The translations under genes and the position numbers were made by a program. Positions 24,776 to 44,816 of a stretch of DNA of 64,000 bases are shown here, in pieces. The notes below the pieces were generated by a model that saw nothing but the letters and a program-made list of their open reading frames with translations, was not told the DNA's origin and searched no databases. Location of the stretch: the NCBI GenBank assembly GCA_019118275.1, contig DWZH01000042.1, forward strand, positions 58,654-122,653, in the 5' to 3' direction. Numbering within the stretch: the stretch's first letter is position 1; every line of letters starts with the position of its first letter. This stretch comes from Candidatus Brachybacterium merdavium. Lineage in GTDB: Bacteria; Actinomycetota; Actinomycetes; Actinomycetales; Dermabacteraceae.

Positions 24776-26293
24776 TCACTCACGCATCCCGCGCAGCCTG
24801 CTGCGGGCCATCAGGGCCATCACAACACCGGCACCGGCGGCGGCGAGCAGCACCCAGGATGTGCCCGCGGCCCCGGCGAGGGTCAGCGCGGCCCCCGAGA
24901 GGAGGGCCAGCACGATCGCATCGGACTGCCAGATCAGCATCGGTATGACCGACAGGTCACCCTGCGCGGTGGGCATGGGTGTGGCCAGGCTGAGCGGCAT
25001 CGGCCCCTTGGCGGCGTCCCGCACCCGACCGGCGACCAGCACCGGCACCAGCAGGACCGGGACCAGCAGCACCACCGCCGCGTCGGCCCCGGGCGAGCCG
25101 GTGAACAGGGCGGCCCCTGCCGCGCCGAGCGTCGCCAGGGCGCCCAGCAGCAGTGTCGGCGCGAGGGCATGCAGCACGGCCTGCAGTGCCGCGGACTGCC
25201 CCAGCAGGGGCGGAGCCCCGAGGGTGTGGATCGCGTGGTGGATACCGTCGACGAACGCGCCGCTGCCGGCCCAGAGACCGAGCGTCCCGGCACCGATCAC
25301 CAGCCATGCCAACGGTCCCGCCAGCTGCATCCCGCCGGCGAGCGCCGCCGCCGCACAGATCACCAGCAGCGCGTTGACCACGCTGCGCTCCGGGGTGCGC
25401 AGCCAAGCGACCGCATCGCGCCGGGCGTACAGCAGCGGCAGCGCGCCCGGCCCGATCGCCGGCAGTCGGCGAGCGGCGGTGGGGCGGTCCCGGAACTGGC
25501 CGGCGACCCCGGCGAGATCACCGGTGGTGGCGATGACGGTGGCCGATTCCCAGCGGGAAGCCTGCTCGGCCAGCACCGTGCCGCGCAACCGGTCCAGCAT
25601 CGGGATGCAGGCTCCGACCGCGACCGCCCCGCCCAGGAGCATCCCGATCGCCCACGGCACACTCGTCGCGGCAGGGTCGGCCGGGTAGACCGCCCCCAGC
25701 AGCAGCGGCACCGGCTGCCAGGCGGCCACCGCGGCCGAGGCGGTCAGCGCCAGGACGAGCAGGCGGCGCGGGCCGGCCTCCAATTTCTGCCCGAGCAGCC
25801 AGGCAGACCCCAGCAGCAGGCTCCCGCCGAGACCGGCGAGCACGAACCAGGCCCCGGCCGCTGGCCCGGCATGGCCGGAGCCGACCAGCGTGACGGTGAC
25901 CAGCGTGGCCGAGATGACGCCTCCGAGAACGGGGACCGTCAGTGCGCGCGTAAAGGGCCGCCACAGCACGGTGCGGCGGCGCAGGTGGGACCAGGCGAGG
26001 GAAGCGGTGAAGAACGGTGCCAGCAGCGCCGGGCCCCGCATCGCCCCCACCAGCAGCGCCACGGCGCCCGCCAAGGGCAGCGCGGCCCCGACGACCTGCG
26101 GGGCGCTTCCGGCCAGCAGCACCGGCAGGACGTCGGGGCGGGCCAGGCCCATCCCGAGCATCCGCAGCAGCGGCACCACCAGCACCGGCACCGAGAGCAC
26201 CGCCACGTAGAGCAGATAGAGCAGGTCCCCGCGGGTGCGGGCCTCGGTGCGGTCCGCCCAGATCTCGCGTACGGCACGGAGTGAGGCGGTCAC
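24776..26293 (-). CDS. Multi-spanning membrane protein, ABC transporter permease
   Basis: This 505-residue protein has about 11-12 hydrophobic segments rich in Ala, Leu and Val, with charged loops such as RRRTVLWRPFTRAL and LPLLYARRDAVAWLRTPERS. I recognise no named domain, but its GTG start overlaps the stop of an ABC ATPase gene (GTGA), and the size and layout match the fused or large permeases of such two-gene systems. It is therefore most likely the membrane component of that transporter. The first 30 residues (REIWADRTEARTRGDL) are cytoplasmic-like. Direction and substrate are unknown. Confidence 0.7.
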   Translation of the reverse strand: MTASLRAVREIWADRTEARTRGDLLYLLYVAVLSVPVLVVPLLRMLGMGLARPDVLPVLLAGSAPQVVGAALPLAGAVALLVGAMRGPALLAPFFTASLAWSHLRRRTVLWRPFTRALTVPVLGGVISATLVTVTLVGSGHAGPAAGAWFVLAGLGGSLLLGSAWLLGQKLEAGPRRLLVLALTASAAVAAWQPVPLLLGAVYPADPAATSVPWAIGMLLGGAVAVGACIPMLDRLRGTVLAEQASRWESATVIATTGDLAGVAGQFRDRPTAARRLPAIGPGALPLLYARRDAVAWLRTPERSVVNALLVICAAAALAGGMQLAGPLAWLVIGAGTLGLWAGSGAFVDGIHHAIHTLGAPPLLGQSAALQAVLHALAPTLLLGALATLGAAGAALFTGSPGADAAVVLLVPVLLVPVLVAGRVRDAAKGPMPLSLATPMPTAQGDLSVIPMLIWQSDAIVLALLSGAALTLAGAAGTSWVLLAAAGAGVVMALMARSRLRGMRE

Positions 26294-26961
26294 GCCGGCT
26301 CCCCGAGATGGAGTCGGCGGTCGGCGAGCTTCTCGAGCAGACGAGGGCTGTGGGTGGCGATGACCAGGGCGGTCCCGCCGTCGGCCCGGGCCCGGACCGC
26401 ACGGATCACCAGGTCCAGCCGCTCGGGGTCCAGGCGCTGCTCCGGCTCGTCCAGCAGAAGCACCTGGCAGGGCCGGGCGAGCGTCAGGGCCAGGGCCACC
26501 AGCTGGGACTGACCACTGGAGACCTCATGCGGGAAGCGACGCGCGAGGGAGGTGATCGCGAACTCCTCGAGCAGAGCCTGCGCCGTCTCCCGGGCCGCGG
26601 CGGCGCTGGCGCCCCAGGTGGCGGCGACGAACTGGAGGTGCTCGACCACGGTGAGGTCGCGTGCGGTCTGGGGCGCGCCGATCAGGGCGGCGAGGGAGGC
26701 GCGGTGACGGCGGTCGCGGTCGTCGGGAACCCTCCCCATGACGGTCACAGTGCCGGCCGTCGGGTTGAGCAGGCCTGCCAGGGCGCGCAGGAGCGTGGTC
26801 TTGCCCGAACCATTGGCACCGGTGATGGCGAGGACCTCCCCGGCCCCGACGTACCCGGTGGTCTCTCGCAGCAGCACCGTCTCGTCGACGATCACGCCCA
26901 CTCCGTCGAAGGCCGCCGCCGGGGTGCTCGGGCCGCCGGGGACGGGTGAAGAGAAGTGCAT
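26290..26961 (-). CDS. ABC transporter ATP-binding protein
   Basis: This 223-residue ATPase leads a three-gene minus-strand operon with a permease and a methyltransferase. Walker A is ITGANGSGKTTLLRALAG near residue 48, the signature is EVSSGQSQLVALALTLARP (SSGQS instead of LSGGQ), and Walker B is VLLLDEPEQRLDPERLDL, followed by ATHSPRL. The Q-loop region reads ALIGAPQTARDLTVVEHL. The start ATG has CAGGA four bases upstream. The domain is complete but short, as in CcmA-like exporters. The substrate is unknown. Confidence 0.88.
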   Translation of the reverse strand: MHFSSPVPGGPSTPAAAFDGVGVIVDETVLLRETTGYVGAGEVLAITGANGSGKTTLLRALAGLLNPTAGTVTVMGRVPDDRDRRHRASLAALIGAPQTARDLTVVEHLQFVAATWGASAAAARETAQALLEEFAITSLARRFPHEVSSGQSQLVALALTLARPCQVLLLDEPEQRLDPERLDLVIRAVRARADGGTALVIATHSPRLLEKLADRRLHLGEPA

Positions 26962-27319
26962 GGTCCTGATTCGACACCATCACAGGGCCTGCGGGCATCC
27001 TCCCTTGGTCGTCGGCAACCCGCGCCGTCGGTCGCGGCTGGGTGTGGAGGCCGCGCCGCTGCCGCACGGGTCACCGTGCACTCGGCCCGGAGACGTCACA
27101 TACTGGACTTTGCGTCATATCCATGCGATCATGTGGTAGCCGCCGTAGGTGTTGCCGCCCTGTCTCCGCAGGTTGAGCAGCACTCGAGCCACCCCGATGC
27201 CGCCGCCGCAACGACCGTGTCCCGTTGCGCCCGATGCCGGGAGAGGCCGCCGCGAGCGACCTGTGTCCACAGGTCCGCGGTACCGGTGAGGCATTCGACC
27301 AACGAGGAGGAGCCCACCT
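26962..27319. other. Divergent intergenic region between the ABC operon and the CarD-like gene
   Basis: This 358-bp spacer should contain both divergent promoters. I see no strong hairpin, tRNA or riboswitch, and no convincing -35/-10 pair. The only clear element is GAGGAGG eight to nine bases before the TTG start of the CarD-like gene. Open frames in the region are shadows without family matches. Confidence 0.5.
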
Positions 27320-27940
27320 TTGTCCGTTGCCGCCAAGACCGCGAAGACTGCTGCGAAGAAGACCAGGAAGTCCGACGCGAAGACCAAGACCGCACGTCCC
27401 GCCCAGGCCGACTCCCGCGTCGTGACCATCGGTGACATCCTGGCCCACCCCGTGCACGGTCCGGTGCGCGTGCTCGCCCACCGCGAACGCACCGTGCGCG
27501 GTGAGAGGCGCGAATACGTCGACCTCGAGGTGATCGGCGACGCCATGCGGATCTCCGTGCCCAGCGACGACGGTCAGATCGTCGGCATGCGCGACCTGCT
27601 CAGCGAGAAGGAGATCACCGAGGTGCTGGACTGGCTCCAGGAGACGGCGCCGGAGCGTCCCAAGCGCGAGACCTGGGCGCACCGCATGAAGTCCCTGACC
27701 ATGCAGCTGCAGTCCGGCAAGCTCAGCGAGCGGGTCAGCGTGATCCGCTACATCCTGCAGGCCTCCGGCATCTCGCCCAAGAGCCTCGCAGAGCGCAACA
27801 TGCTGCGTTCGGCGCTGGACCCCCTGGCCACCGAGATCGCGATCGCCCGCGGGATCGAGAAGGACGCCGCCGAGCAGCTGCTGGTCGAGACCGCAGCGCT
27901 CGGGGCCCCGACCGCGGAGGACGAGAAGGTCGCCGCCTGA
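27320..27940 (+). CDS. CarD-family RNA-polymerase-binding protein (divergent second copy)
   Basis: This is a paralogue of the canonical CarD encoded at 42405. It is 206 residues with a TTG start and GAGGAGG upstream. Residues 1-32 form a basic Ala/Lys tail (AAKTAKTAAKKTRKSDAKTK) absent from CarD. The CarD_CdnL_TRCF-like RNAP-interaction domain (about 34-85) has IGDILAHPVHGPVRVLAHRERTV and EYVDLEVIGDAMRISVP. A helical C-terminal DNA-binding domain retains a tryptophan at the equivalent position (ETWAHRMKSL versus NWSRRYKAN in CarD) and extends about 25 residues further. It is monocistronic and convergent with an MFS gene. Role inferred: modulating promoter opening at a subset of promoters or conditions. 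Confidence 0.82.
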   Translation: MSVAAKTAKTAAKKTRKSDAKTKTARPAQADSRVVTIGDILAHPVHGPVRVLAHRERTVRGERREYVDLEVIGDAMRISVPSDDGQIVGMRDLLSEKEITEVLDWLQETAPERPKRETWAHRMKSLTMQLQSGKLSERVSVIRYILQASGISPKSLAERNMLRSALDPLATEIAIARGIEKDAAEQLLVETAALGAPTAEDEKVAA

Positions 27941-27966: not shown

Positions 27967-29280
27967 TCACCGCCCCCGGGTGCTCCCGGAGGGCGTGAGG
28001 CGGGGCAGTGCCCGCGCCAGCCACGCTCCCCCGGCCACACAGAGCGCACCGGTGACTGCGCCGGCCACCGCGACCGGGGCCACCACGGTGATGCCGGTGA
28101 CCAGCAGCGGAGCGGTCAGCCGGCCCGCGCCCATCAGGGTGTTCCACCAGGCCAGGTACCGGGTGCGGTCATGGACGGGGGACACGTCGATGCCCAGGGT
28201 CATCACGATGCCGCTGCCCAGACCATTGCCCACGGCGATCACCATGCTCGGCACGAGCAGCGCGACCACCGCGGCGGTCACGCCGTCCCCCGCGAGCGCC
28301 TGGGTCATCACCGCCAGCAGCAGGTAGCCCGCCCCGTTCACCAGGGCGCAGGGCACGGCGACCGCCACGCGTCCGTAGCGGTCCATCAGGGTCCCCGCGG
28401 GGATCACCAGCAGGATCTCGATCACGGCGCTGACGCCGAAGACGATCGAGACCCACATGGACTCCAGCCCCAGTGAGGCACCCAGCAACGGGATGATCAC
28501 CGGCCGGTTCACGCGTGAGATCATCACCGGCGCGATCCCCACCCCGACCATGACCATCCGTGACAGCACCGCCCGGGTCAGACGGGTCCGGGCCTGGCTG
28601 GGCCGGGGACGCCGCCCCCGCGGCGCGGACCGGCCGCCCCGCAGCTCTCCGGCTGGCAGGAAGGTCGCCACCATCACGGTCGCCCCGCACGCGGTGACCG
28701 CATACAGCACGAACACCCCGGTGTCGTGGCCCAGCGCCAGCACCAGCGCGCCCAGCAACGGCCCCGCCACCTGGCCGATCCGGATCACCCCGCCGAACAT
28801 GGTCATGCCCCGGGCCCTCATGGCCGGCGGCAGCGCCGTGCCCAGATACGACTGCCGCCCCAGCATCCACACCTGGGCGCTGGCGGCCATCATGGTCAGC
28901 AGTCCCACCAGGGTCAGTTGGTGGGCGAGGCCCGCCCCCGCCTCGAGCCCGTGCGAGATCACCGTGAACGCCACCAGATTGGCCACCACCAGCAGGCTGC
29001 CGGTGGTCACCAGGGCGGGACGTGCGCCGACCCGGGAGATCAGCCGGCCGGCCGGGATGGGGCCGAGGAAGGAGGCGATTCCGAAGATCGTGGTCAGCGC
29101 CGCTGCCTGCGGTACCGAGAACCCCAGCTGCAGCGCCAGCAGCGGGATCACGGGCATCAGCGCGGCCTGGCCGGTGAACTCCAGCAGCGAGGGGATGTAC
29201 ACCGAAGGCGCCAGGGACCGGATGACCTGCGAGGTGGTGCGCGGCGACCGCTCGGCAGGGGGCGGGGCGGACGCGGTCAC
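27967..29280 (-). CDS. Major facilitator superfamily transporter
   Basis: This 437-residue protein has about 12 hydrophobic segments with a basic cytoplasmic central loop (RSAPRGRRPRPSQARTRL near residue 210). SFLGPIPAGRLISRVGARPAL near residue 73 corresponds to the MFS motif A region, and GTLMDRYGRVAVAVP is its counterpart in the second half. It resembles drug or sugar efflux members, but the substrate is not evident. I chose the GTG at 29280; CACACT lies six bases upstream, a weak match to the leaderless signature. The ORF track start (29316) adds 12 residues lacking a ribosome binding site. It is divergent from a small NAD(P)-binding protein gene. Confidence 0.85.
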   Translation of the reverse strand: MTASAPPPAERSPRTTSQVIRSLAPSVYIPSLLEFTGQAALMPVIPLLALQLGFSVPQAAALTTIFGIASFLGPIPAGRLISRVGARPALVTTGSLLVVANLVAFTVISHGLEAGAGLAHQLTLVGLLTMMAASAQVWMLGRQSYLGTALPPAMRARGMTMFGGVIRIGQVAGPLLGALVLALGHDTGVFVLYAVTACGATVMVATFLPAGELRGGRSAPRGRRPRPSQARTRLTRAVLSRMVMVGVGIAPVMISRVNRPVIIPLLGASLGLESMWVSIVFGVSAVIEILLVIPAGTLMDRYGRVAVAVPCALVNGAGYLLLAVMTQALAGDGVTAAVVALLVPSMVIAVGNGLGSGIVMTLGIDVSPVHDRTRYLAWWNTLMGAGRLTAPLLVTGITVVAPVAVAGAVTGALCVAGGAWLARALPRLTPSGSTRGR

Positions 29281-29342
29281 CGGCCGAGTGTGACACCCGA
29301 TAGTGAGCCGGGGCAAACACTCTCGAAGGGCGGGCTCTCCGG

Positions 29343-42404: not shown

Positions 42405-42887
42405 ATGAACTTTGCCGTCGGCGAGACCGTCGTCTACCCGCACCATGGTGCTGCACTCATCGAAGAGGTCAAGACTCGCACCATCAAGGGCGAAGACCGC
42501 ACCTATCTGAAGCTGAGGGTCGCCCAGGGCGACCTGACCATCGAGGTCCCCGCCGACAACGTCGACCTGGTCGGCGTGCGCGACGTGGTGGACAAGGAGG
42601 GCTTGGACGAGGTGTTCGAGGTCCTCCGTCAGCCCTACACCGAGGAGCCCACCAACTGGTCGCGTCGGTACAAGGCCAATGTCGAGAAGCTCGCCTCCGG
42701 CGATGTGAAGAAGGTCGCCGAGGTCGTGCGCGATCTGTGGCGCCGCGACCAGGACCGTGGCCTCTCGGCCGGGGAGAAGCGGATGCTCGCCAAGGCGCGG
42801 CAGATTCTGGTCTCCGAGCTGGCGCTGGCCGAGAAGACCGATGAGGCCGATGCCGAGTCGATCCTCGATGAGGTCCTCGCCTCCTGA
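42405..42887 (+). CDS. carD: RNA polymerase-binding transcription factor CarD
   Basis: CarD binds the RNAP beta subunit and stabilises open complexes at most promoters in actinobacteria. It is 160 residues, the standard length. The RNAP-interacting domain is [22 protein letters not shown]..., and the C-terminal DNA-binding helices contain the conserved tryptophan in [17 protein letters not shown]. The start ATG at 42405 has GAAAGGGGA upstream and a possible -10 TAGACT at 42374; the ORF track start adds 36 spurious residues. The gene precedes the ispD-like gene as in mycobacteria. A divergent CarD paralogue lies at 27320. Confidence 0.96.
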
Positions 42888-42901: not shown

Positions 42902-43627
42902 GTGTCCTCAGCCGCCGCGTCGATCCGTTCAGGCCCCCCGCGGCCGATCGTCCTGGCCCTCGCGCCACCGGTCGCCGGTGCCTCCGCCGAGGCGGACATC
43001 CCATGCCTGGGGATGCTCGGCGGCTCCCCGCTGATCGAGCGTCTGCTCACCACCCTGCGCGGGCCCGGCCTGCCTCCCGCACTGGTGGTCGCCGCCCCTG
43101 AGCCGGCCCGTCAGCTGCGCTCCGCCCTGCCCGGTCTGGAGGTGGTGTCGGCGGTGGGCGGCCGCCCGGGTGCCCTGCGCGCGGCGCTGGACGCCACGGA
43201 CGAGCCGTTGCTGCTGGTCCACGACGCCGAACGGGCCCTGACCCCGGAATCCACCGTCACCGAGGTCCTCGCGGGTCTGGACGAGCAGGCCGACGCAGTC
43301 GTGCCCGTGATCCCGATGACCGACTCGGTCAAGGCCGCCCCCGCCGACCGTTCCGGCGGCCTGCGCAACATCGACCGCTCCACGCTGGCGGGTGTGCAGA
43401 GTCCGCGCCTGCTGCGCCGGACCGTGTTGGAGCGCGCCCTGAGAGATGCCCCGCAGGCGCCCGATGAGGTCCTCGGCGCCCTCGAGATCGGCGCGCGCGT
43501 GCGCACCGTGCCGGGCTCGCACTCGGGCTTCGCGGTGGTGGACCGGCTCAGTCTGTGGCAGGCGCAGATCTCCCTCGGCCTGGCTCGGGACACCTCCCAC
43601 CGCTACGGCCTGGCGCGCCGCAGCTGA
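42902..43627 (+). CDS. Degenerate IspD-like protein (probable pseudoenzyme)
   Basis: This 241-residue protein sits where actinobacteria carry ispD (directly after carD) and aligns with mycobacterial IspD over most of its length: LLVHDAERALTP, AVVPVIPMTDSVKAA, ALEIGARVRTVPGS. However, the CTP/MEP-binding residues are gone. The glycine loop GSGxR is replaced by PPVAGAS (about 22-28), the Pro-Lys step by PCLGML, the TPQGF motif by VQSPRLL, and the C-terminal FKIT lysine by FAVV. MEP cytidylyltransferase activity is therefore unlikely. The reading frame is intact, so it may be a retained non-catalytic protein. An IspD with intact motifs is encoded at 44031. Confidence 0.8.
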   Translation: MSSAAASIRSGPPRPIVLALAPPVAGASAEADIPCLGMLGGSPLIERLLTTLRGPGLPPALVVAAPEPARQLRSALPGLEVVSAVGGRPGALRAALDATDEPLLLVHDAERALTPESTVTEVLAGLDEQADAVVPVIPMTDSVKAAPADRSGGLRNIDRSTLAGVQSPRLLRRTVLERALRDAPQAPDEVLGALEIGARVRTVPGSHSGFAVVDRLSLWQAQISLGLARDTSHRYGLARRS

Positions 43628-44030: not shown

Positions 44031-44816
44031 TCACCCTGTTCTCAAACCTAGCGCGGTCACCACGTCCTGCGCCAGGAGAAGGTCCTGGGCGTAGGTGATC
44101 TTGAAGTTGGTCTCCTCGCCCCGGACCCAGGTCACCGGGATATCGGTGTACTCCTCGGCGCAGGAGGCGGTGTCGGTGCCCACGAATCCGTGGCGGGCGG
44201 CCGCCTCATAGGCATCCAGGATCGTCGCCGCGCGGAAGCCCTGGGGGGTCTGCACCCGCACCAGGACCCCCGGGTCGAAGCGCCCGGTCGCCAGCAGCTC
44301 CCCGTCACCCACGGGCGCGATGTCGTCGGCCGGGATGCCCGGCACCGCTCCCCCGGCCTCGCGCGCCGCGTGCAGGACCGCCGCGGCCAGGCCGTGGGAC
44401 ACCAGCGGCCTGGCCGCGTCGTGGATCAGCACCGTGTCCACGGCCCCCGAGTCGATCCGGTCGGCGAGATGACGCAGGGCCAGCAGCTCGGACTCTTGAC
44501 GGGTGTCCCCTCCGGTGATGATCTCCAGGCGGTGATCGGTCTCGCGGCCGGCCACGAAGCGTGCGTGCTCGAGGTCCTCGGGGCGCACCACGAACACCAG
44601 CAGCCCGACACCCTCGACGGAGCCCAAGGTGTTCAGCCCCCAGCTGGCGATGGAGCGACCGGCCAACGGCAGGAAGGCCTTGTTCATGTCGGCACCCACG
44701 CGGGTGCCGGACCCTCCGGCGAGCACCACCGCGGCCGCGCGGCCGCGGAGGCGGTGGGCACGCTGGCGTCGGGAGGCGGTCACCCAGGCATCGTAGACGG
44801 CCCGCACCGGCCTCAT
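44031..44816 (-). CDS. ispD: IspD/TarI-family cytidylyltransferase (intact active site)
   Basis: This enzyme probably makes CDP-ME from MEP and CTP in isoprenoid synthesis. The 261-residue frame contains the catalytic loop LAGGSGTRVGADMNKAFLPLAG (R39, K46), VLIHDAARPLV, VQTPQGFRAATIL, TDTASCAEEY and the substrate lysine in ETNFKITYAQDLLLAQ. About 25 basic residues precede the fold, and a start at a downstream GTG is possible. The gene is inverted relative to carD and ispF and lies next to the degenerate IspD-like gene, consistent with functional replacement. TarI (ribitol-5-phosphate) specificity cannot be excluded, since the families share all these motifs. Confidence 0.85.
   Translation of the reverse strand: MRPVRAVYDAWVTASRRQRAHRLRGRAAAVVLAGGSGTRVGADMNKAFLPLAGRSIASWGLNTLGSVEGVGLLVFVVRPEDLEHARFVAGRETDHRLEIITGGDTRQESELLALRHLADRIDSGAVDTVLIHDAARPLVSHGLAAAVLHAAREAGGAVPGIPADDIAPVGDGELLATGRFDPGVLVRVQTPQGFRAATILDAYEAAARHGFVGTDTASCAEEYTDIPVTWVRGEETNFKITYAQDLLLAQDVVTALGLRTG

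Follow-up and report, generated by a model that had tools for sequence, protein, structure and literature searches.

A second, divergent CarD-family gene with a putative promoter of its own and a covarying leader hairpin in Brachybacterium

CarD is normally a single-copy and often essential general factor. The 64,000-nucleotide stretch of Candidatus Brachybacterium merdavium DNA analysed here (the window) contains a canonical carD gene and a second, divergent gene of the same family, which we call carD2 (Table 1). At the level of sequence, the analysis establishes the family of CarD2, the presence of both domains and of the contact residues, purifying selection, a single genus-specific locus and a covarying leader hairpin. 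CarD2 most likely takes the place of CarD on RNA polymerase (RNAP) as an alternative under tight regulation, with promoter tuning as its most likely role. The explanation that fits best, and that we hold to be rather probable, is that CarD2 would compete for RNAP under the control of its own putative promoter, leader and probable degron; in this species, an added tail would probably raise its DNA affinity.

Table 1 Features of the carD2 locus and of canonical carD (positions are those of the window)
Feature	Coordinates	Strand	Remarks
ABC transporter ATPase, divergent neighbour	26290..26961	-	permease 24776-26293; synteny
Putative promoter	27089..27132	+	block GGAGACGTCA...CTGGA, then extended -10 TGnGAnnnT (27124-27132), G at -12
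Conserved hairpin, 5' end of carD2 leader	27137..27190	+	54 nt, 17 bp, covariation
Shine-Dalgarno AGGAGG of carD2	27305..27310	+	kept upstream of the start codon in all orthologs
carD2	27320..27940	+	second, divergent member of the CarD family; 206 aa from a TTG start; 24 Brachybacterium genomes with orthologs
N-terminal Lys/Ala tail	27320..27427	+	36 residues; predicted disordered; this species only
RNAP-interaction domain (RID)	27428..27571	+	Pfam residues 37-84
CarD C-terminal helical domain	27620..27883	+	Pfam residues 101-188
C-terminal Ala-Ala	27932..27937	+	possible Clp degron
MFS transporter, convergent neighbour	27967..29316	-	synteny
Canonical CarD	42405..42887	+	160 aa; CarD_C 130 bits, RID 51 bits; ispD-like gene after

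Judged by its sequence, CarD2 is a genuine CarD-family protein. It scored above the gathering cut-offs of both Pfam CarD_C (PF21095; 58.4 bits, E 7e-16) and CarD_TRCF_RID (PF02559; 27 bits, E 5e-6), the latter by 4 bits only. The domain order is of the CarD_CdnL type, with the RID, a Tudor-like beta domain, preceding the helical CarD_C domain. In BLASTP, CarD2 and the canonical CarD share 30% identity across an alignment of 157 residues (E 3e-22), and a sequence search of the PDB returned mycobacterial CarDs as its closest relatives. The AlphaFold2 model of the window protein, computed with its relatives (pLDDT 84.6), features strands at residues 39-82 followed by helices at residues 95-193. 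Its best Foldseek matches are CarD in the Streptomyces and Mtb RNAP complexes (8hvr and 6edt; TM-score by target 0.82, rmsd 3.0-3.2), and PDB matches 1-11 are all CarD or CdnL (E 1e-11 to 1e-6), with Mfd next. TRCF/Mfd proteins join the RID to helicase modules; CarD2 comprises 206 residues with a CarD_C domain. Three proteins of this genome contain a RID: CarD2, the canonical CarD and a 1029-residue open frame on contig C106 that is presumed to be Mfd.

These results bear out an earlier, sequence-only reading of the window, which had given the coordinates and frame of carD2 exactly and had described a second, divergent CarD that retains the RNAP-interaction fold. The HMM search that it had proposed, the fold predicted by AlphaFold2 and placed by Foldseek, and 22 aligned orthologs all agree with this description. 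That reading had named a structural match to a different beta-barrel family as grounds for rejection; no such match emerged, because Foldseek puts the CarD of RNAP complexes first. Its 'longer helical C-terminus' corresponds to only about 12 extra residues, modelled at low confidence (pLDDT about 61). The canonical CarD is 94-98% identical across Brachybacterium. Two IspD-family genes (42902-43627 and 44031-44816) lie within 2 kb, a diverged copy beside carD and the second on the opposite strand. Elsewhere in the window, a selenocysteine tRNA gene is found at 2035-2129, so this actinobacterium probably uses selenocysteine.

The residues through which CarD contacts the transcription machinery can be traced in CarD2, with the correspondence to Mtb CarD read by us from alignments. 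W119 (codon 27674-27676), at the start of alpha3, aligns with the wedge tryptophan W85/W86 (W85 in Mtb), which contacts T-12 (PMC4593161). R57 (27488-27490) aligns with R25, K124 with K90 and R159 with K125; the R25E and K125E mutations impair open-complex stabilisation (PMC10232725). W119 and R57 are unchanged in the 22 orthologs and the canonical CarD, as are, among others, P44, H46, G47, G61, Y66, R122, K124 and R143, and R159 is invariant within CarD2. The earlier claim that a key tryptophan position is kept therefore holds across all 22 aligned orthologs. In Myxococcus, the tryptophan is dispensable for CarD function (PMC4374960). The Mtb R47 position is a serine in CarD2 and a glutamate in canonical Brachybacterium CarD. 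Given this serine and the narrow margin of the RID match, the affinity of CarD2 for RNAP could be low.

In the CarD2 clade, the motif HPVHGPVR, which is invariant or nearly so, replaces the YPHHGAAL of the canonical RID. This replacement would be expected if the CarD fold had been co-opted to act off RNAP, on another partner or on DNA, and there is a precedent of sorts in Myxococcus CarD, whose RNAP binding is apparently dispensable and whose binding to CarG is crucial (PMC4374960). However, R57, G61, Y66 and the VGxR segment, all conserved through the family, are retained in CarD2, and we regard such a change of partner as very unlikely.

carD2 is present in 24 of 38 Brachybacterium genomes, or about two thirds (one of the 24, G791, is linked to carD2 by position via contig L118 only). 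It is missing from the other 14 and is therefore not essential to the genus. CarD2 orthologs were not found in five genomes of the same family that represent four genera besides Brachybacterium. Scanning the genome contigs with a single CarD2 protein as query returned nothing, and with an alignment as query 14 loci. By our count, a second CarD_C match occurs in 17 of 368 other genomes of the order (~5%); the second CarDs tested from the order fall outside the CarD2 clade. In the tree, which has a few long branches of unsure place, CarD2 forms one clade separate from canonical CarD (support 96/99), and its stem is long, at 2.14 changes per column. As judged from these comparisons, the clade is specific to Brachybacterium. 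The tree also rules out a recent duplication of canonical carD. Between close orthologs, dN/dS values of 0.14-0.31 reveal purifying selection.

The locus is constant in the carriers examined, flanked by the ABC ATPase and MFS transporter genes, and in the loci examined it lies about 14.5 kb from carD-ispD. Where carD2 is missing, the interval between these neighbours can be a clean 48 bp (G025) or contain an unrelated reading frame (G011), which rules out a decayed remnant in these two genomes; in G008 the ABC pair is missing as well. A plasmid origin was rejected, as plasmid matches are about 25-35% identical. So was a phage origin, since the single 56% 'Bacteriophage' match (MT835782) is Brachybacterium chromosome with an identical gene order. 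This GenBank record (MT835782.1, L135; 'UNVERIFIED: Bacteriophage sp.'), an 18-kb contig from human faeces, consists of Brachybacterium-like chromosome, keeps the gene order of the carD2 neighbourhood and is not phage.

Three Brachybacterium genomes depart from the common pattern. G032 carries tandem CarD2 genes (L103/L080, about C1:691333-692617), each with a separate leader hairpin; one copy groups with that of B. epidermidis and the other stands alone within the CarD2 clade. G013, which lacks carD2, contains a different, very divergent second CarD (L085, C109:1713-2198) with its own conserved tryptophan and an AA end. The 99%-complete genome G029 gave zero CarD_C matches, probably owing to an assembly gap; otherwise it would be a CarD-less actinobacterium.

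From conserved elements upstream of the gene, we infer a promoter for carD2. The extended -10 element TGnGAnnnT is present in 25 of 25 carD2 loci, with G at -12 throughout; canonical carD of the same genus has TGnTAGACT, with T at -12, and a short 5' UTR. Provided that this is the promoter, the G at -12, where the CarD tryptophan contacts T, suggests that carD2 expression may be set apart from normal CarD activation. Promoters with a base other than T at -12 are less activated by CarD, and they are over-represented in the set of genes for which repression is predicted (PMC4593161, PMC10232725). A scan for the sigma-70 consensus found none, nor were terminators found. The 35-nt block upstream of the -10 element (27089-27123) reads GGAaACGTCA...CTGGAT...GTCAGATCC and is possibly the site of an unknown regulator. 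In the eight genomes searched, exact matches to the block core occur at carD2 only. A regulon sharing the block A motif was ruled out, with motif counts near those of a reversed-pattern control.

The same G at -12, the 2.14 changes per column on the stem branch and the weakened RID match would also suit an antagonist, which would fill the CarD site without productive RNAP activation, or pair with CarD, and thereby lower CarD-dependent transcription (for example, of rRNA) when expressed. We consider this unlikely: the wedge tryptophan and the basic patch, which are required for activation, are invariant in CarD2.

By the position of the putative promoter, the carD2 leader appears to be long (about 180 nt, with a 5' end predicted near 27139) and structured; the relevance to leaderless promoters suggested in the sequence-only reading finds no support here. 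Mean pairwise identity, to be read against a baseline of 0.66 at third codon positions, is 0.76 in the block and 0.80 in TGnGAnnnT (76-80% for the putative promoter), 0.82 in the hairpin, 0.54 in a variable stretch and 0.76 in the RBS region. The hairpin has 94.1% of its pair cells paired, versus 31-42% when slid, and six pairs show double (compensatory) changes. The observed covariation was reached by 0 of 500 shuffles, and the hairpin core was also predicted independently by RNAalifold. Strong matches to R1, a covariance model of the hairpin, have E-values no higher than 2e-8 and occur in 24 of the 38 Brachybacterium genomes, which are exactly the carD2 carriers, with one strong match per carD2 gene and two in G032. 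The other 14 genomes gave weak matches only (best E 0.002), and secondary matches (1e-4, 5e-4) are probably due to chance, as the E-values are rough. A regulon sharing the hairpin was ruled out, as no genome has a second strong site outside carD2; a leaderless upstream ORF inside the leader was likewise rejected, its GTG start not being conserved.

Directly after the putative start site, an operator would also be well-placed, and the hairpin could then be a DNA inverted repeat recognized by a regulator rather than an RNA structure. This is rather improbable, as the arms vary in a compensatory manner: pairing is kept and a fixed binding sequence is not. Considered as an RNA element, the hairpin appears to be undescribed so far. 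An Rfam search of the window gave no gathering-level match over the carD2 leader and, with the E limit relaxed to 10, yielded just one chance match, of 12.6 bits and upstream of the leader; a literature search on Brachybacterium CarD and CarD paralogs found no relevant paper. Tentatively, the leader might represent a new class of cis-regulatory RNA that controls a dedicated alternative CarD, perhaps with CarD2/CarD feedback at the G-12 promoter and the leader. If so, Brachybacterium would alternate two CarDs on one polymerase.

Translation of carD2 is expected to begin with a lysine-rich tail. AGGAGG sits 9 nt 5' of the TTG at 27320, and the orthologs share the Shine-Dalgarno sequence, the start and the initial residues (mostly M-S/P-V-A). 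Translation of the tail is thus very probable. A GTG start at 27422, yielding a tail-less protein, is disfavoured because it lacks a Shine-Dalgarno sequence, whereas the TTG has a conserved one. The tail contains 10 K/R in 36 residues here, compared with 0-3 K/R in the 11-20 residues of 21 orthologs, and residues 1-18 of the AlphaFold2 model are disordered (pLDDT <50). The basic tail pointed out in the sequence-only reading is thus present behind a conserved Shine-Dalgarno sequence, but it is not a family-wide trait: by comparison with the 21 orthologs, the lysine-rich stretch is a lineage-specific extension. It can neither define CarD2 nor be its purpose. A histone-like, DNA-compacting CarD, with the tail as the functional novelty, would draw on its charge and predicted disorder and on the functional basic disordered tail of Myxococcus CarD (PMC4374960); we find it very unlikely, the tail being missing in all 21 aligned orthologs and hence outside the conserved function. 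Instead of a conserved role, a role in DNA affinity is plausible by analogy, since basic disordered tails raise the activity of Myxococcus CarD (PMC4374960). In this species, the tail would probably increase non-specific DNA affinity. The regulatory layer, comprising the hairpin, the putative promoter and a putative degron, is more interesting than the tail.

The putative degron lies at the opposite end of the protein. An AA end was found in 24 of 24 CarD2 proteins checked (the 22 aligned orthologs, L079 and L103), the tails being otherwise unalignable, a count that is weakened by the alanine-rich ends of CarD2 and the relatedness of the sequences. Among the 52 predicted genes of the window, the carD2 product is the sole protein ending in AA. 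The terminal AA of Caulobacter CdnL serves as a ClpXP degron (PMC11034885), and the LAAAS at the end of mycobacterial CarD is conserved (PMC8820732). The AA end of CarD2 is likely to be a Clp degron.

In the mechanism that we propose, CarD2 would bind RNAP as a second CarD and compete with CarD, and would thus alter how long open complexes last, either at some promoters or in certain conditions. Control of its level, separate from that of CarD, would fall to the atypical promoter with G at -12 and the structured leader of its mRNA, and probably also to Clp proteolysis via the AA end. A genus with a second CarD in a fixed place, equipped with its own putative promoter, a structured leader and a likely degron, is a natural setting in which to learn how two competing CarDs act on a single RNAP, and pairs of carD2-plus and carD2-minus species make deletion and transplant tests direct.

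Among known systems, the mycobacterial and Streptomyces CarDs (CdnL group) share with CarD2 the two domains, the predicted fold (6edt and 8hvr, TM 0.82) and the equivalents of R25, W85 and K90. The LAAAS C-terminus of mycobacterial CarD is linked to Clp (PMC8820732), whereas CarD2 ends in AA. CarD2 differs from these proteins in its identity of about 30%, its N-terminal extension, its long structured leader and its occurrence alongside a canonical CarD, being non-essential by distribution. Other Actinomycetota also have second CarDs in addition to the canonical one (plasmid pRLCBG43, a Frigoribacterium plasmid and scattered chromosomes); those on chromosomes that were tested lie outside the CarD2 clade of Brachybacterium, and the plasmid ones are not on the tree. 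On the plasmids, the carD gene adjoins a sigma factor (pRLCBG43, L137) or an Lsr2 gene (Frigoribacterium, L136). Myxococcus xanthus, with CarD and CdnL, likewise has two CarD-family proteins, one with a basic disordered tail. That tail is C-terminal, HMGA-like and about 140 residues long, with RGRP AT-hooks and the partner CarG (PMC4374960), whereas the CarD2 tail is N-terminal, has 36 residues and no AT-hook, and occurs in one species only; HMGA-type proteins have a C-terminal domain with an acidic part and RGRP AT-hooks, and no RGRP occurs in the CarD2 sequence. Finally, Caulobacter CdnL shares the C-terminal Ala-Ala, there a ClpXP degron through which the protein is cleared in starvation (PMC11034885); in Caulobacter it is the canonical copy that carries it, and in Brachybacterium a second copy that carries a putative one.
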